A stretch of DNA of 64,000 nucleotides from contig NZ_CP101943.1 in NCBI RefSeq assembly GCF_024508235.1, positions 62,001 to 126,000 of the forward strand. Direction: 5' to 3'. Origin of the DNA: Halococcus qingdaonensis. Its GTDB lineage: Archaea > Halobacteriota > Halobacteria > Halobacteriales > Halococcaceae. Under the pieces are notes generated by a model. The model did not search any database and had not been told where the DNA came from. It saw only the letters and a program-made list of their open reading frames with translations. The position numbers were made by a program, and so were the translations under genes. Of this stretch, positions 23,528 through 62,708 are shown in pieces. Each line of letters opens with the position of its first letter. The first letter of the stretch is position 1.

Positions 23528-23745
23528 CAGTACCTCACAAAGTTGATCAGGCGAGAGCAAACGGTGGCATCCGTGAGCCGGTCATCGCTGCTATCGACAT
23601 CACGCCGTGGCCGATCTTCACCTCGCCCTACAAGAATGACGAAGACGTAGCGTGTGGTGACGAGCCAGTGGTGGTGAACGGAGAAGAGCGATACCCGCGC
23701 GAGGCGTATCCGGAGATGGTACACGAGCTGACGGAGTCTCGCGTT
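23528..23745 (+). pseudogene. Transposase fragment (IS4-like DDE core)
   Basis: The plus strand reads VDQARANGGIREPVIAAIDI, then TPWPIFTSPYKNDEDVACG and NGEERYPREAYPEMVHELTE, the region around the first catalytic Asp of haloarchaeal IS4-like transposases. It begins next to CAGTACCTCACAAAG (23528-23542), the same terminal sequence as the MITE-like element at 59330-59675. It has no start, no end and frame breaks. Confidence 0.5.
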
Positions 23746-57495: not shown

Positions 57496-57870
57496 TTAGA
57501 CCGCTTCGAAACGCGAATTCAGCACGCTTGCGATAGTAGTAGCTGGTCTGATCTCACGGGAACCCGCTAGCACCGATTGCTTCGGTACCCGAAATGCCCA
57601 CCTGCTTCGTTGATGGCGGAGCAGGCTCCGCAACTCCCGCATTGAGAACTCTCTATCCCAGGTCCAGAATGTAGTGTGATCCGGCGATTTCTCTAGCCCG
57701 TACACATCAAAAATTCCGGGCATCACGTTGAAGTAGCCCTCACAGTGTCGGAGCAGTTTCCCGATTTCCTCGTATTGCAGCAGCATGTCAGTTTTGAGTC
57801 ACTCAGCATACTCACTATCGTCATCTTTGTCGGCGACAGCAGATGTGTCTGGATCGTAATCTGCAGAAGG
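57496..57870 (-). pseudogene. IS5-type (ISH) transposase fragment
   Basis: The readable part includes HTTFWTWDREFSMRELRSLL and, in another frame, remnants matching the DPDVPA...GDSGYAEW region of the intact relative at 60574-61392. The catalytic domain is missing. It sits between the flippase and glycosyltransferase and is a decayed copy. Confidence 0.7.
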
Positions 57871-57925
57871 AAGCGGTGATCAATAGAATATGGAAAAGGA
57901 ACTCCACCTACTTCAGCCGACTAAG

Positions 57926-59011
57926 TTAACAGTGCCTGCTATAGAGTGATGTCATCGAAGAAATAAAATCATTCCCAATCTTCAAATTCGCATTCCTACC
58001 AACAACCTTTTCTAAACCATTATCCCCAAATTGTGCCCTGAGCTGCCTGTTTTCAAGCAGCTCTCGGACATGAGTGCGAGCAATTTCTGTTTCACTAACG
58101 TCAAACAAATATCCAGTCTCATCATGAGTGACTTGTTCTCGCATACCAAATGAATTATTGGCAATAACCGGAAGGGCCGAACTCATTGCTTCCAAAATAA
58201 CATTAGGATAGCTATCGGCATAAGACACATAGAAAAAAACGTCCGAATTAGCATATGACTGGGCAACATCTTTTTGAAACCCGGCCAATGATATTTTTTC
58301 AGATATATTTTCTAAATTTTCCTCCACATAGCTCTCTAGTTGGGTATAATACCTACCACCTCCGACAATCATATACTCCACCCCATTCTTTTCTTCAAGT
58401 ATTGGACGTAGTATTTCAAGACTTCGCTGAACACCAGCGTATTTTTTCCTGAAACCAAGATTAGTGACAGTAGTTATGGTTAGGGAATCATTATTATATG
58501 GCTCAGACCGCTGAATGAAGTTTGAGCTAATCGGCACATTGACCACTTCAATCTTATCGGCTTCGATATTCGCATCTTCACTGATCTCTTTTTTAAGACT
58601 ATCAGAAACTGTAATGACTCCATCTGCATGTTCAAGCACTGAAATAGTAGAAATATAGAATAAATAATAGTATATTGCCGAGAGATATTCTGATTCAGAT
58701 ATCAAATCATCCAATTCAGAACGTTCTACAGTATAAGGATTACCACCTAATCGAAAGATTAGCTGCTTCCTTATCACTTTTGAAAATATATACATAATAA
58801 TAGCAATAGCTCCACCCCCATCAAGTAAGATGATGTCTGTATTCTGTCGCACACTCTTTTTACCACAGATGGCGAGTAATGATAATATACGCTCAAATAA
58901 CCCATTCGAGGAAAGGTCAATATGAAAACCACTTGAAGAAGCAATTCGCAACGGCTCAACCGTATTTTCTGGACGACGATCTGATATCGAGAGTATATTA
59001 ATACTCATCAT
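57926..59011 (-). CDS. Glycosyltransferase family 4-like, AT-rich
   Basis: A 361-residue GT-B enzyme. The C-terminal Rossmann half has LGFRKKYAGVQRSLEILRPI, YMIVGGGRYY, SLAGFQKDVAQSYANSDVFF and the nucleotide-sugar signature VSYADSYPNVILEAMSSALP (E-x7-E type). The N-terminal half is degenerate (LLDGGGAIAIIMYIF). The base composition is distinctly AT-rich compared with its surroundings, and the codon use favours A/T third positions, so it was probably acquired from a different source. A sugar donor cannot be inferred. Confidence 0.83.
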   Translation of the reverse strand: MMSINILSISDRRPENTVEPLRIASSSGFHIDLSSNGLFERILSLLAICGKKSVRQNTDIILLDGGGAIAIIMYIFSKVIRKQLIFRLGGNPYTVERSELDDLISESEYLSAIYYYLFYISTISVLEHADGVITVSDSLKKEISEDANIEADKIEVVNVPISSNFIQRSEPYNNDSLTITTVTNLGFRKKYAGVQRSLEILRPILEEKNGVEYMIVGGGRYYTQLESYVEENLENISEKISLAGFQKDVAQSYANSDVFFYVSYADSYPNVILEAMSSALPVIANNSFGMREQVTHDETGYLFDVSETEIARTHVRELLENRQLRAQFGDNGLEKVVGRNANLKIGNDFISSMTSLYSRHC

Positions 59012-59329
59012 TCATGTGAAGATATTATCGTTTCAGTACTGGTGTTGGGATAAAAGTTCCAACCAAGAAGCATTAGGTGCATAGATACGAGTTGCTGTGT
59101 TGTCTACAAATGAATTTCGGAAGCAGGATCCAAGTTGCAGAGGTATTGATAATTCCGATTCGACTATTTAAATTGCCCTCCGAGAGTCGACTGTCCGAGA
59201 GTTTGTTCATAACAATTGGCGAGCAGAGCAGAGAGTACACTGGCAATTCGGTCTCCAGTATTCAGTCATACCCAGCGAATGTGACGGAAGACACACCGAT
59301 TCCGAGACGGAGAAGGCGGTGGCGCAGAA
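59012..59329. other. Gap without genes upstream of the MITE
   Basis: About 320 bases without a credible gene. It may hold the promoter of the AT-rich glycosyltransferase. A 15-base segment (ggcggtggcgcagaa, 59315-59329) occurs again at 59838-59852. Confidence 0.4.
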
Positions 59330-59675
59330 TCAGTACCTCACAAAGCCATCTTTCTGATATTACCGTAATTTGCCCGATGTTTACTGTAACGGTGCAGTCG
59401 TGCGGTTTTGACGCCTATTCGGCGAGTCGTTGAGCGAGAAGTTGAGCCAGAGCTGCTTCATCGTGTTCAAGTGCGATTGCTGACGCGGTCGCAACCGCGT
59501 CGGCGATGCTGTCACAATCGTACTCGATCATGACCTCAGTTACCTGTTCAAAGACCTCATCAGGAACTGTGATCGCGTTGTAGCCTTCTGGAGGCATACC
59601 TCGTTCTCCGCTCAATTACAGTAAAAGCGTGGCGATTTACGGTAATATCAGTGATCTAGCTTTGTGAGGTACTGA
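59330..59675. mobile_element. MITE-like element with 60-bp inverted ends
   Basis: A 346-bp unit. The ends share three perfect inverted blocks at equal spacing: TCAGTACCTCACAAAGC (59330-59346) with 59659-59675; GATATTACCGTAA (59356-59368) with 59637-59649; and TTTACTGTAA (59380-59389) with 59616-59625. The gaps between blocks are 9 and 11 bases on both sides. GAA flanks both ends, possibly a 3-base duplication. It carries a small ORF and no transposase. A solo end occurs at 23528-23542. Confidence 0.75.
59415..59597 (-). CDS. Small acidic ORF inside the MITE
   Basis: 60 residues from the ATG (MPPEGYNAITVPDEVFEQVT, then EVMIEYDCDSIADAVATASA and IALEHDEAALAQLLAQRLAE). The start resembles short CopG/antitoxin-like proteins (AITVPDEV), though no full fold is clear. 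A TTG six codons upstream is also possible. One inverted block of the element (59616-59625) lies just upstream. Confidence 0.5.
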   Translation of the reverse strand: MPPEGYNAITVPDEVFEQVTEVMIEYDCDSIADAVATASAIALEHDEAALAQLLAQRLAE

Positions 59676-60006
59676 GAATGGTTCTCATAGCGTGATGGTT
59701 GGACTGGCGATGTCGTTGTCTCGTTGGTGATTCGTGAGTGCAACAGCGAGCCGAAGACACAGTGCCAAGAAGACGTGAGATTCGACTCTGACTCGGCCTC
59801 GGACCCGTGGGGTCCCGAGGCCGAGATCCTTACAGACGGCGGTGGCGCAGAAGTCTTCACATGGATTGCGGTAGGACGGATCTGACGTGTCTACCTCCAA
59901 ATCCATCCTACCGGATAACGCGACGGGCGAACAGGTCTTCAAAGCACTGGAGACTGAGACAGCAGCGCTTTTCGAACACCTCGATCTCTCGTTTCTCGTC
60001 AGCTAT

Positions 60007-60043
60007 CCCGTGTTCGCCCTCGATCCGAGGGGGCGAACACGGG
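60007..60043 (+). repeat. 13-bp perfect intragenic inverted repeat
   Basis: CCCGTGTTCGCCC / GGGCGAACACGGG with an 11-base loop, inside the truncated IS5-like transposase. Confidence 0.85.
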
Positions 60044-60249
60044 TTCACCGGCCCCCGGAGCTCCTGAAAGGTCTCCTTCACTGCTTCTACCATGATATCT
60101 ACGGTCCGCGTCCAATGGCCCGAGAACTCCATAACGAGGATGTCTGGCGGCAATGTGGATTCACGCGTCCGCCGGGACGGCGGACGCTTGAGCGATTCAT
60201 CACTGACTTCGCGCTCGTTGCCGAGGACGTGTTCATCACGTTGGTTCAC

Positions 60250-60282
60250 GAGCTTGCCGAGCAGGTTCCGCTCGGCAAGCTC
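60250..60282 (+). repeat. 13-bp perfect intragenic inverted repeat
   Basis: GAGCTTGCCGAGC / GCTCGGCAAGCTC with a 7-base loop. It lies just before the first catalytic Asp codon of the transposase. Confidence 0.85.
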
Positions 60283-60375
60283 TATCGGATCGATGGTACC
60301 GATATCCCTGTCGACCAGCAGGATGATGATGCTGAGTGGAACTACGATCACGCTGAAGATGACTTGCCCTGTTGA

Positions 60376-60573
60376 ACGCAAGACAGCGGCGGGGTGGGGT
60401 CAGTAGACCGCTACTCCACAGCGAGAAACGCACGATCCTCCGATCAGAAGATGCAGTAGCTGTCGCCGATGACGTTCTGTGAACACCCAGAAGAGCATCA
60501 TCTTCGGACTTCTCTTGGTGATGACGGCGATGCCTCTGACCAATACGCTGGAGAAAGAGAGCAGGCGGCGAGC
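60376..60573. other. Debris between two IS copies
   Basis: About 200 bases without an intact gene. It may contain leftovers of the truncated transposase and the left end of the next IS. No inverted ends were recognised. Confidence 0.35.
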
Positions 60574-60589
60574 CTAACTCGCCGCCTGC
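60561..60589 (-). terminator. Hairpin across the stop codon of the IS5-type transposase
   Basis: GCAGGCGGCGAG / CTCGCCGCCTGC, 12 bp, with the loop cctaa containing the stop codon (TAG at 60574-60576 on the minus strand). It could shield the 3' end of the mRNA. Confidence 0.5.
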
Positions 60590-61392
60590 GACAGATTATG
60601 GACGATGCACTTGCGAGTGAGCTCTCGGAACTGGCCGTGCCAGCTTCGAGAGCGCAGCTTCTTACCGTCGTCTTCCTTGAGTAGTGAGAAGCCGGTCTCG
60701 CCCATCCACCGCTGGTGGTAGTCATCAGCGTCCATCCGCGCGTTGTGTGCCTGTTTCAGCGGGGTGTGCTCCTTGTGCTTGATGAGCGGGCGCGTTGACT
60801 CACCGCGACACTCCTCGCGGAGGTCGCTCCATGAGTAGTTCGCGTCCGCGGCCAAGACCCGCAGGTCTTCCGCGTTCCGGCGGAAGACCTGCATTCCGAT
60901 GTGACCATCCCAGCTCTTGCGCGTCGTGTAGTGGACATCCCTGATCGCCAGCGTGTTCATATCGACCAAGGTCGTCGTTTTCAGCGACTGGAAAGAGTAA
61001 TCAGCACGATTGCGGTAGTGGTGGCTGGTCTGATCGCGTTGGAAGCCACTGGCGTCGATGGCTGCTTCACCACTCCAGCCGGCCTGCTCCGCCGAAGTGC
61101 GGAGCAGGCGGCGTAGCTCACGCATCTGAAACTGCTGCTCCCAACGGCAGAACGAACTGTAGTGCGGTGCTCGTTCGAGGGCGAATTCGTCGAGGATAAC
61201 GGTTGAATCATTGAACCACGCCTCGGTCTCACGGAGACTCTTGTCGAGTTCGACGCGCATCAGAATCAGCGCGATCTGGACCCACTCGGCGTACCCGCTG
61301 TCGCCATCCGGCGCAGCGGGTACGTCTGGATCGTCGACGTGCTGTTTGCCAAGGCGCTTACACTGTCGCGCGAGCGGTCGTTTCGACTTCAT
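60574..61392 (-). CDS. IS5-type (ISH) transposase
   Basis: A 272-residue DDE transposase that looks intact. The N-terminal part has DKSLRETEAWFNDSTVILDE and HYSSFCRWEQQFQMRELRRL; the first Asp lies in AAIDASGFQRDQTSHHYRNR, the second in LRVLAADANYSWSDLREE, and the catalytic Glu in HQRWMGETGFSLLKEDDG. The start MKSKRPLARQ at 61392 is preferred to one 24 codons earlier. Four long intragenic inverted repeats are present. A decayed relative is at 57496-57870. Confidence 0.85.
   Translation of the reverse strand: MKSKRPLARQCKRLGKQHVDDPDVPAAPDGDSGYAEWVQIALILMRVELDKSLRETEAWFNDSTVILDEFALERAPHYSSFCRWEQQFQMRELRRLLRTSAEQAGWSGEAAIDASGFQRDQTSHHYRNRADYSFQSLKTTTLVDMNTLAIRDVHYTTRKSWDGHIGMQVFRRNAEDLRVLAADANYSWSDLREECRGESTRPLIKHKEHTPLKQAHNARMDADDYHQRWMGETGFSLLKEDDGKKLRSRSWHGQFRELTRKCIVHNLSQAAS
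60861..60892 (+). repeat. 13-bp perfect intragenic inverted repeat
   Basis: GCAGGTCTTCCGC / GCGGAAGACCTGC with a 6-base loop inside the IS5-type transposase. Two further ones are at 61082-61109 (11 bp) and 61290-61324 (11 bp). Confidence 0.85.
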
Positions 61393-61475
61393 ATCGCAAG
61401 AGGGCGTCCAAATCCCCACAAGTCTCACGAAAACACCAGGGAAACCGGCTGAGTGTAGCTTCAAGCATAGTCTTG

Positions 61476-61598
61476 CTAGCTTTCTTCGAGCGGAACAGGG
61501 TAGAGCCGACGTAGCTTGATCCGGGCGTCATCGGTGGTGAACTGCCAGTCGATGAGTCGGTCAGCCGCATTGCGATCCACCTGCCACGCAGCGACCTC
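61476..61598 (-). pseudogene. C-terminal 40 codons of IS630 A transposase
   Basis: Read on the minus strand it gives EVAAWQVDRNAADRLIDWQF and TTDDARIKLRRLYPVPLEES before a TAG at 61476-61478. The QFTTDDARIKLRRLYP block is the normal end of haloarchaeal IS630 transposases and is exactly what is missing from the main part at 62709-63719. Confidence 0.85.
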
Positions 61599-61648
61599 CG
61601 GGAGTGGTCTGCGAAAGAGTTGAACCCTTAGAGAGCCTCTCTACGGTG

Positions 61649-62708
61649 ATGAAGAACAATCGGCGAGGTCTGTTGGTGAGGCATCTGACGGGAGGTGAGC
61701 TTGATCAAGCGATTGCAGATGCTCAGAAGGCAGACGAGACCCGTCTCGTCCGGCGGCTGTGTTACGTGAAGAACCTCTACGTTGGCGATACGCGCGAGGA
61801 AGCAGGCGACCGCGTCGGGATCTCCCGATCCACGACGCGGCGGTGGGCACGCGCGTGGAACGAAGCTGGTGTCGAGGGCCTTCGGCCGGGCTTCGGCGGC
61901 GGTCGGCCGCCGAAGCTCTCTCCCGAACAGTTCGACGAACTCTGTGACATCCTCAAGGAAGGTCAGCCCTGGACGCCGCGAGCGATCCACACACTCATCA
62001 AAGAACGATATGGCGTCACGTACGATCCAGCTCACCTGAGCCGGAAGTTGCGTACGAGCGGGATGCACTACGCTAAACCACGCCCGATGGATCCACGTAG
62101 TCCCGAGAACGCAGATGAGATACTCGCCGAGCGCCTCGCCAAGGCGCTCGGCGAGAAGGATACCGATGAACAGGAGGATGATCCCGTCGTGCTGGGGTTC
62201 TTTCGATGAAGCGTGGCCGCAGCCGTTCGACAATTCTCAGCGAATGTGGTCGTACGACCGAACGGTAACGATCGAGAAACCGCTGGTGACAGCTCCGTGG
62301 CGCTCGTTCGGCTTCTATGCACTCACTGGAAAGAGTACGATCTCGTTCGGTGAACGAATCATCAAAGAAACCGTCTGTGAGGCCTTGGAGACGATCCGTG
62401 AGCAGAACCCGGTCGGTCGGATTCTGCTCGTGGCGGACAACTACGGATCCCATCACGCGAAGCTCACGCAGGAACGGGCCGACGAACTCGGCATCGAGTT
62501 CGTCTTCATCCCGCCGTATTCGCCGACGTTGAACGCGATCGAACCGCTCTGGAAGAGTCTCAAACGAGAGATCTCACCGGAGATCTACGAGGACGAAGAT
62601 CACTTTCGAGAGTTCCTCACCGAGAAATTTCTTCGATTGAGCCGTCAGCTGAGCTTTGCGGTTGATTGGATCGACACGTTTCTCCCAGATGTCCAAAAGC
62701 TACGCTGA
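61649..62708 (+). pseudogene. IS630 transposase of element B, +1 frameshift
   Basis: The first frame has the helix-turn-helix (TREEAGDRVGISRSTTRRWA) and GVTYDPAHLSRKLRTSGMHY. Near 62200 the frame is lost at ggttctttcgat. Dropping one T gives VVLGFFDEAWPQPFDNSQRM with the first catalytic Asp, followed by LLVADNYGSHHAKL (second Asp) and YSPTLNAIEPLWKSLKRE (Glu). All three catalytic residues are therefore present but in two frames. Confidence 0.85.
62123..62155 (+). repeat. 14-bp perfect intragenic inverted repeat
   Basis: CTCGCCGAGCGCCT / AGGCGCTCGGCGAG with a 5-base loop, inside element B's transposase. A second one is at 61890-61916 (11 bp). Confidence 0.85.

Follow-up and report, generated by a model that had tools for sequence, protein, structure and literature searches.

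Near the right-hand end of the stretch of Halococcus qingdaonensis DNA analysed here (64,000 bp in all, called the window below) lies a short segment bounded by inverted repeats, with one small gene and, according to the list of open reading frames of the region, no transposase. How does such a segment move, and what does the gene do in it? A preliminary description called it a MITE-like element of 346 bp with 60-bp ends made of three inverted blocks; its mobile nature is borne out by ISH3-type ends, a 5-bp target duplication and copies in other genomes. The inverted arms (59330-59389 and 59616-59675) are 60 nt long and 80% identical, and they are real; the longest perfect arm is 17 bp, longer than any in 1000 dinucleotide-preserving shuffles (maximum 15). 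Inverted repeats do lie at the proposed bounds, but the outermost base on each side (T and A, respectively) is part of a perfect AGAAT target duplication, so the element proper is 344 bp (table 1). The outer block is the 15-bp terminal repeat (plus two neighbouring bases), but the inner two blocks are a pair of TTACNGTAA palindromes at each end that are linked to the cargo gene.

Homologous elements of 344–347 bp with the same ends are present in Halococcus dombrowskii, Halorubrum sp. BOL3-1 and other genomes, and the cargo gene is present four times in one Halorubrum genome (G201). Perfect 5-bp duplications, which differ from copy to copy, flank seven of the eight complete same-end copies in several genera. 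That of the window element has the A...T form, and those of the others are AGATT, AGGAC, AACAT, AACCT, AATAT and AGACT (AGGAC is without the final T). The empty-site check that had been suggested shows that other genomes of the genus carry the target sequence uninterrupted, with a single AGAAT. Past mobility of the element is thus written in these sequences. In its own genome the whole element is single-copy, but its 15-bp end is not.

The same 15-bp end bounds two insertion sequences on the same contig, outside the window (one base differs in one of them); both are full-length and have 5-bp duplications, and the transposase of the one at 1673030-1674429, the one tested against NCBIfam, is of the ISH3 family. 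In other haloarchaea this end bounds elements of 1387–1400 bp. The 5-bp duplications of ISH3 elements are generally flanked by A and T (PMC2266710), so the window element resembles ISH3-family insertion sequences in its 15-bp ends and its duplication; it differs from them in having no transposase and an unrelated interior, with sites that ISH3 elements do not have. The two full-length elements are, as judged from their ends, most likely the drivers, and an ISH3 transposase supplied in trans would move the window element. The preliminary description had noticed that the outer end recurs at 23528, and an exact copy is indeed there (23528-23542), solitary and adjoining unrecognised coding debris. 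The transposase fragment that it placed beside this copy and proposed as driver did not hold up, because behind that end there is no likeness to the genome's ISH3 elements and no transposase recognised by NCBIfam. A third ISH3-type element (L129, G000:C1:127082 onward) lies just past the window and is broken inside its transposase gene where TAATGACTAAGACAATTTTTGAAAG starts, a sequence similar to the end of IS630 elements of the second group discussed below.

Table 1. Features of the element and its surroundings (window positions unless marked as contig positions)
Feature	Position	Strand	Basis or remarks
Whole element	59331..59674	none	344 bp; terminal repeats and target duplication; homologous copies elsewhere
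Left end of older target insertion sequence	59315..59330	+	Uninterrupted copies in G208 and G235 begin here
Target duplication, left copy, AGAAT	59326..59330	+	Sequence; one copy in uninterrupted site of L253
Target duplication, right copy, AGAAT	59675..59679	+	Sequence
Left terminal inverted repeat, CAGTACCTCACAAAG, of ISH3 type	59331..59345	+	Exact match (15 of 15 bp) with ISH3-type insertion sequence ends in the same genome
Terminal inverted repeat, right, 15 bp	59660..59674	-	
Palindrome TTACCGTAA	59360..59368	none	29 bp from left end; probable operator downstream of gene
Palindrome TTACTGTAA	59381..59389	none	50 bp from left end; probable operator downstream of gene
Cargo gene, 60 aa from ATG, probable ribbon-helix-helix protein	59415..59597	-	Conservation, purifying selection, predicted fold
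Palindrome TTACAGTAA	59616..59624	none	50 bp from right end; probable operator before gene
Palindrome TTACGGTAA	59637..59645	none	29 bp from right end; probable operator before gene
Transposase remnant, right flank, weakly IS1182-like	59887..60375	+	NCBIfam E 1.8e-4, below cut-off
Full-length ISH3-type insertion sequence	1673030-1674429 (contig)		1400 bp; 5-bp duplication; ISH3-family transposase, NCBIfam E 2.5e-107
Full-length insertion sequence with the same ends	1495888-1497286 (contig)		1399 bp; 5-bp duplication

The single 60-residue reading frame noted earlier is a real gene. Relatives are found in 26 of 391 sampled haloarchaeal genomes of the class (the sample behind all genome-wide counts given here) by single-sequence search and in 35 by profile search, although some of the extra matches are fragments. 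Searching haloarchaeal genomes for the element's end and comparing the cargo, as had been proposed, finds the 15-bp end again and a cargo that is conserved between copies. Substitutions fall mainly at third codon positions, with dN 0.11 and dS 1.35 between the window copy and L133, and dN/dS for the gene is about 0.1–0.2. In three relatives (L140, L150 and L157) a stop codon or frameshift disrupts the gene, yet most of the palindromic sites are still there. The idea that this is simply an internally deleted ISH3 element with a chance reading frame accounts for the ISH3 ends, and ISH3-ended elements of 382–384 bp without the cargo gene do exist (L018 and L032), but it is contradicted by copies in which the frame is conserved and under selection, and by cargo relatives that sit between ends not of the ISH3 type; we reject it as next to impossible.

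The protein is probably a ribbon-helix-helix (RHH) DNA-binding protein, to judge from its predicted structure. AlphaFold gives helices at residues 13–25 and 31–59 and an N-terminus without regular structure, which fits an RHH monomer because the strand of this fold pairs only in the dimer. RHH proteins lead the fold matches of the window protein, with E-values of about 1 or higher, none of them individually significant, and a model of a relative from another clade is compatible with this fold, if less clearly so. No RHH profile matches the window protein above its curated cut-off; the best Pfam match in the protein family is RHH_1, seen in 2 of 22 relatives with a lowest E of 0.0016. The window protein belongs to no known family in Pfam, NCBIfam or PHROGs, and a PDB sequence search gives only chance-level matches. 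A viral origin of the gene was considered and rejected, as searches of phage records and of viral contigs found no relative. RHH proteins include many antitoxins, so the antitoxin-like appearance ascribed to the start of the peptide was a fair observation, but no toxin partner accompanies it; the gene is the only one in the element and no partner gene is common to the annotated relatives. A toxin-antitoxin module is ruled out by the lack of an adjacent toxin gene in the unit. In its predicted N-terminal strand region, its helix at 13–25 and a second helix from 31, and in the palindromic paired sites near its promoter, the system resembles RHH repressors and antitoxins such as ParD, VapB, NikR and CopG; it differs from them in having no toxin partner and in having sites downstream of the gene as well, and the sequence similarity is very weak.

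The four palindromes of the element are the only copies of TTACNGTAA in the 64-kb window, and in the 2.7-Mb genome a 21-bp-spaced pair (allowing one mismatch) occurs only at the element's two ends. Almost all complete relatives have similar sites on both sides of the gene, as a rule two before it and one or two after it; the background density in flanking DNA is 0.007 sites per 100 bp. In all copies with the window element's ends (type a below), sites lie at distances of 29 and 50 bp from the left end, and on the right at 29 bp (and at 50 bp, where that site is kept); several of these copies have only one clear downstream site left. Their alignment shows conserved terminal repeats and sites, but not conserved spacers. 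The distance between paired sites differs among the clades of the protein, 20–21 bp in the 60-aa clade, 12 bp in the 71-aa clade and 11 bp in the remaining group, spacings of about one or two helical turns. The exact site was not found in the ISH3 and IS630 elements examined, nor in the gene-less ISH3-ended L018 and L032. Two elements with Tn5-like ends (CTGTCTCTTA ... TAAGAGACAG; L295 in G219:C57 near 151603, and L306 in G129:C1 near 516419) each have one 21-bp-spaced TTACNGTAA pair and no cargo gene, and may use the cargo protein in trans. A 75-bp mini-element with type b ends (L222, G219:C82, 92258-92332) has a single TTACCGTAA and no gene.

At least seven end types enclose the cargo relatives, and four of these types match the ends of insertion sequences (a those of ISH3, c and g those of two groups of IS630 and d, weakly, those of IS6). 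Type c ends (TGTAGCTTCAA) match 1210–1213-bp IS630-family elements in the same genomes, and type g ends match the second IS630 group and have flanking TA. The weakest assignment is that of type d ends (GGGTGTCAACCTTAG), which match decayed IS6-family-like copies (L208 and L209, of which L209 alone was tested, NCBIfam E 1.8e-5); no target duplication is seen at the type d elements. A search for autonomous insertion sequences with end types b and f found none. Three type g elements (L151, L154 and L161) seem to be inserted in other transposase genes, which by eye are IS1595-like and IS66-like. The protein tree places end types a, b and f within the clade with 21-bp site spacing (support 97/94) and types c and g within the 12-bp clade (support 96/96); support is weaker for the 11-bp group, and because the tree rests on 70 columns it extends only to the main clades. 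Site spacing therefore tracks the protein clade and the ends do not, which argues that the gene and its sites have come as a unit between different ends several times. It appears from these comparisons that one operator-bracketed regulator gene is carried by different insertion sequence families, namely ISH3, two IS630 groups, probably IS6, and others.

We favour, with reasonable though not high confidence, the reading of the window element as an ISH3-type transposon that is not autonomous, in other words a coding MITE or mobile insertion cassette, and that carries a regulator gene with its own operator pairs. Points that weigh against this reading are the want of an individually significant RHH match for the window protein, the single copy of the element in its own genome, the several type a copies with one clear downstream site, the weak IS6 assignment, the end types b, e and f without a matching driver, and the two Tn5-like-ended elements with a site pair but no gene. 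The co-occurrence of gene and sites, and the co-variation of protein clade and site spacing, suggest that cargo dimers would bind the TTACNGTAA sites with one or two helical turns between them, and that the protein binds these sites is very likely. The upstream pair lies in the promoter region in all clades, so the bound pair would repress the cargo gene, and we consider such self-repression likely. The downstream mirror-image pair would be superfluous for simple autorepression. It mirrors the upstream pair, and the same arrangement recurs in two unrelated protein families (see below), so a further role at the element ends is suggested; bound protein would most likely bridge or mark both ends, and so would either shape the transposase's use of them or insulate the element from read-through transcription. 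Looping, insulation and an action on the transposase may each be the role in question, and sequence comparison does not distinguish among them. That the protein acts on transposition, and not on transcription alone, is accordingly a conjecture to which we give somewhat less than an even chance.

Pure autoregulation is the simpler account; the protein would only repress its own gene, the downstream pair would assist as a further operator by DNA looping, transposition would be a matter for the transposase alone, and the gene would persist because tight self-control makes it nearly cost-free. The promoter position of the upstream pair is what this account expects, and paired operators are common among RHH repressors. 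By itself, however, it leaves unexplained both the equal distances of the sites from the two ends in type a copies and the same bracketing in two unrelated RHH families, and we think it unlikely. The protein could also serve the host or another element by regulating genes elsewhere, the transposon being a vehicle for a valuable cargo. Strong purifying selection on the gene, its spread between genera and the site pairs in a few gene-less elements would all agree with this, but the confinement of the 21-bp pair to the element within its own genome and the lack of a neighbouring partner gene kept across copies make it highly improbable.

The second protein family is that of ISH2. ISH2 of Halobacterium and its Haloquadratum relatives are coding MITEs of about 520 bp with a 10-bp duplication (PMC3119063, PMC10264941), and ISH2 has been assigned to the ISH8 family (PMC10134880). 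Among the MITEs of Haloquadratum, the ISH2 type alone has been described as coding; its ORF is reported to be expressed in Halobacterium (PMC3119063), and the protein has been detected (PMC10134880). We find that the ISH2 ORF (pNRC100; L224, 70600-71300) encodes a CopG-like RHH protein (RHH_1 matches down to E 8e-6 among relatives) and that on pNRC100 its gene has the palindrome CGTGCACN3GTGCACG on both sides. ISH2-like genes are present in 46 of the 391 genomes, and many of the relatives (L264-L293) lie between other ends; one sub-clade has a different palindrome, GTTGCAGN3CTGCAAC, on both sides. ISH2 and the window element, whose RHH nature is probable, thus share a plan: each is small and non-autonomous, its one gene is RHH-like and has palindromes, probably operators, on either side, and relatives lie between several kinds of ends. 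On the other hand, ISH2 has ends CATTCGTCTTTAGTTAAGA and a 10-bp duplication where the window element has ISH3-type ends and a 5-bp one, and it has its own operator and a protein not detectably homologous to the window cargo. Profile comparison of the two families (E 0.098, probability 0.6%) detects no common descent, so the plan is convergent or very old. In the open-licence literature we found no description of a gene bracketed by operators in this way, nor, in the literature, one of the function of the small ISH2 protein. The window element offers a testable reading of ISH2, in which the architecture is shared and the RHH protein and the operator are not.

The usual view of miniature transposons is of elements that carry nothing and ride on a single transposase. 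In the present family the ends switch from one insertion sequence family to another, yet the regulator gene and its probable sites are not parted, which suggests that both do something for the element. We tentatively propose, as a possibility and not an expectation, a general strategy of haloarchaeal mobile DNA in which an operator-bracketed gene for a small DNA-binding protein takes on ends belonging to many unrelated transposases and so makes use of these enzymes, while its protein, bound at both ends, controls or assists transposition; if this is true, ISH2 and the window-type family are two separate instances of it. Mobile insertion cassettes, in which insertion sequence ends surround a passenger gene without a transposase (PMC5444012, PMC6542083, PMC2266710), are similar in having such ends around a non-transposase gene and in their presumed movement in trans. 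The window element differs from them in that its passenger is a probable DNA-binding protein with probable sites inside both ends, and in that the gene-plus-sites unit occurs with several insertion sequence families.

The element has itself landed in mobile DNA, 16 bp inside the end of an older multicopy insertion sequence, to which the transposase remnant in the right flank probably belongs. Insertion sequence debris is dense around the element, from 57496 to 62233; it includes two IS5-family fragments (a weak match at 57496-57786 and a strong one at 60574-61464) and an ORF at 61604-62209 that by its appearance resembles part of an IS630-type transposase.
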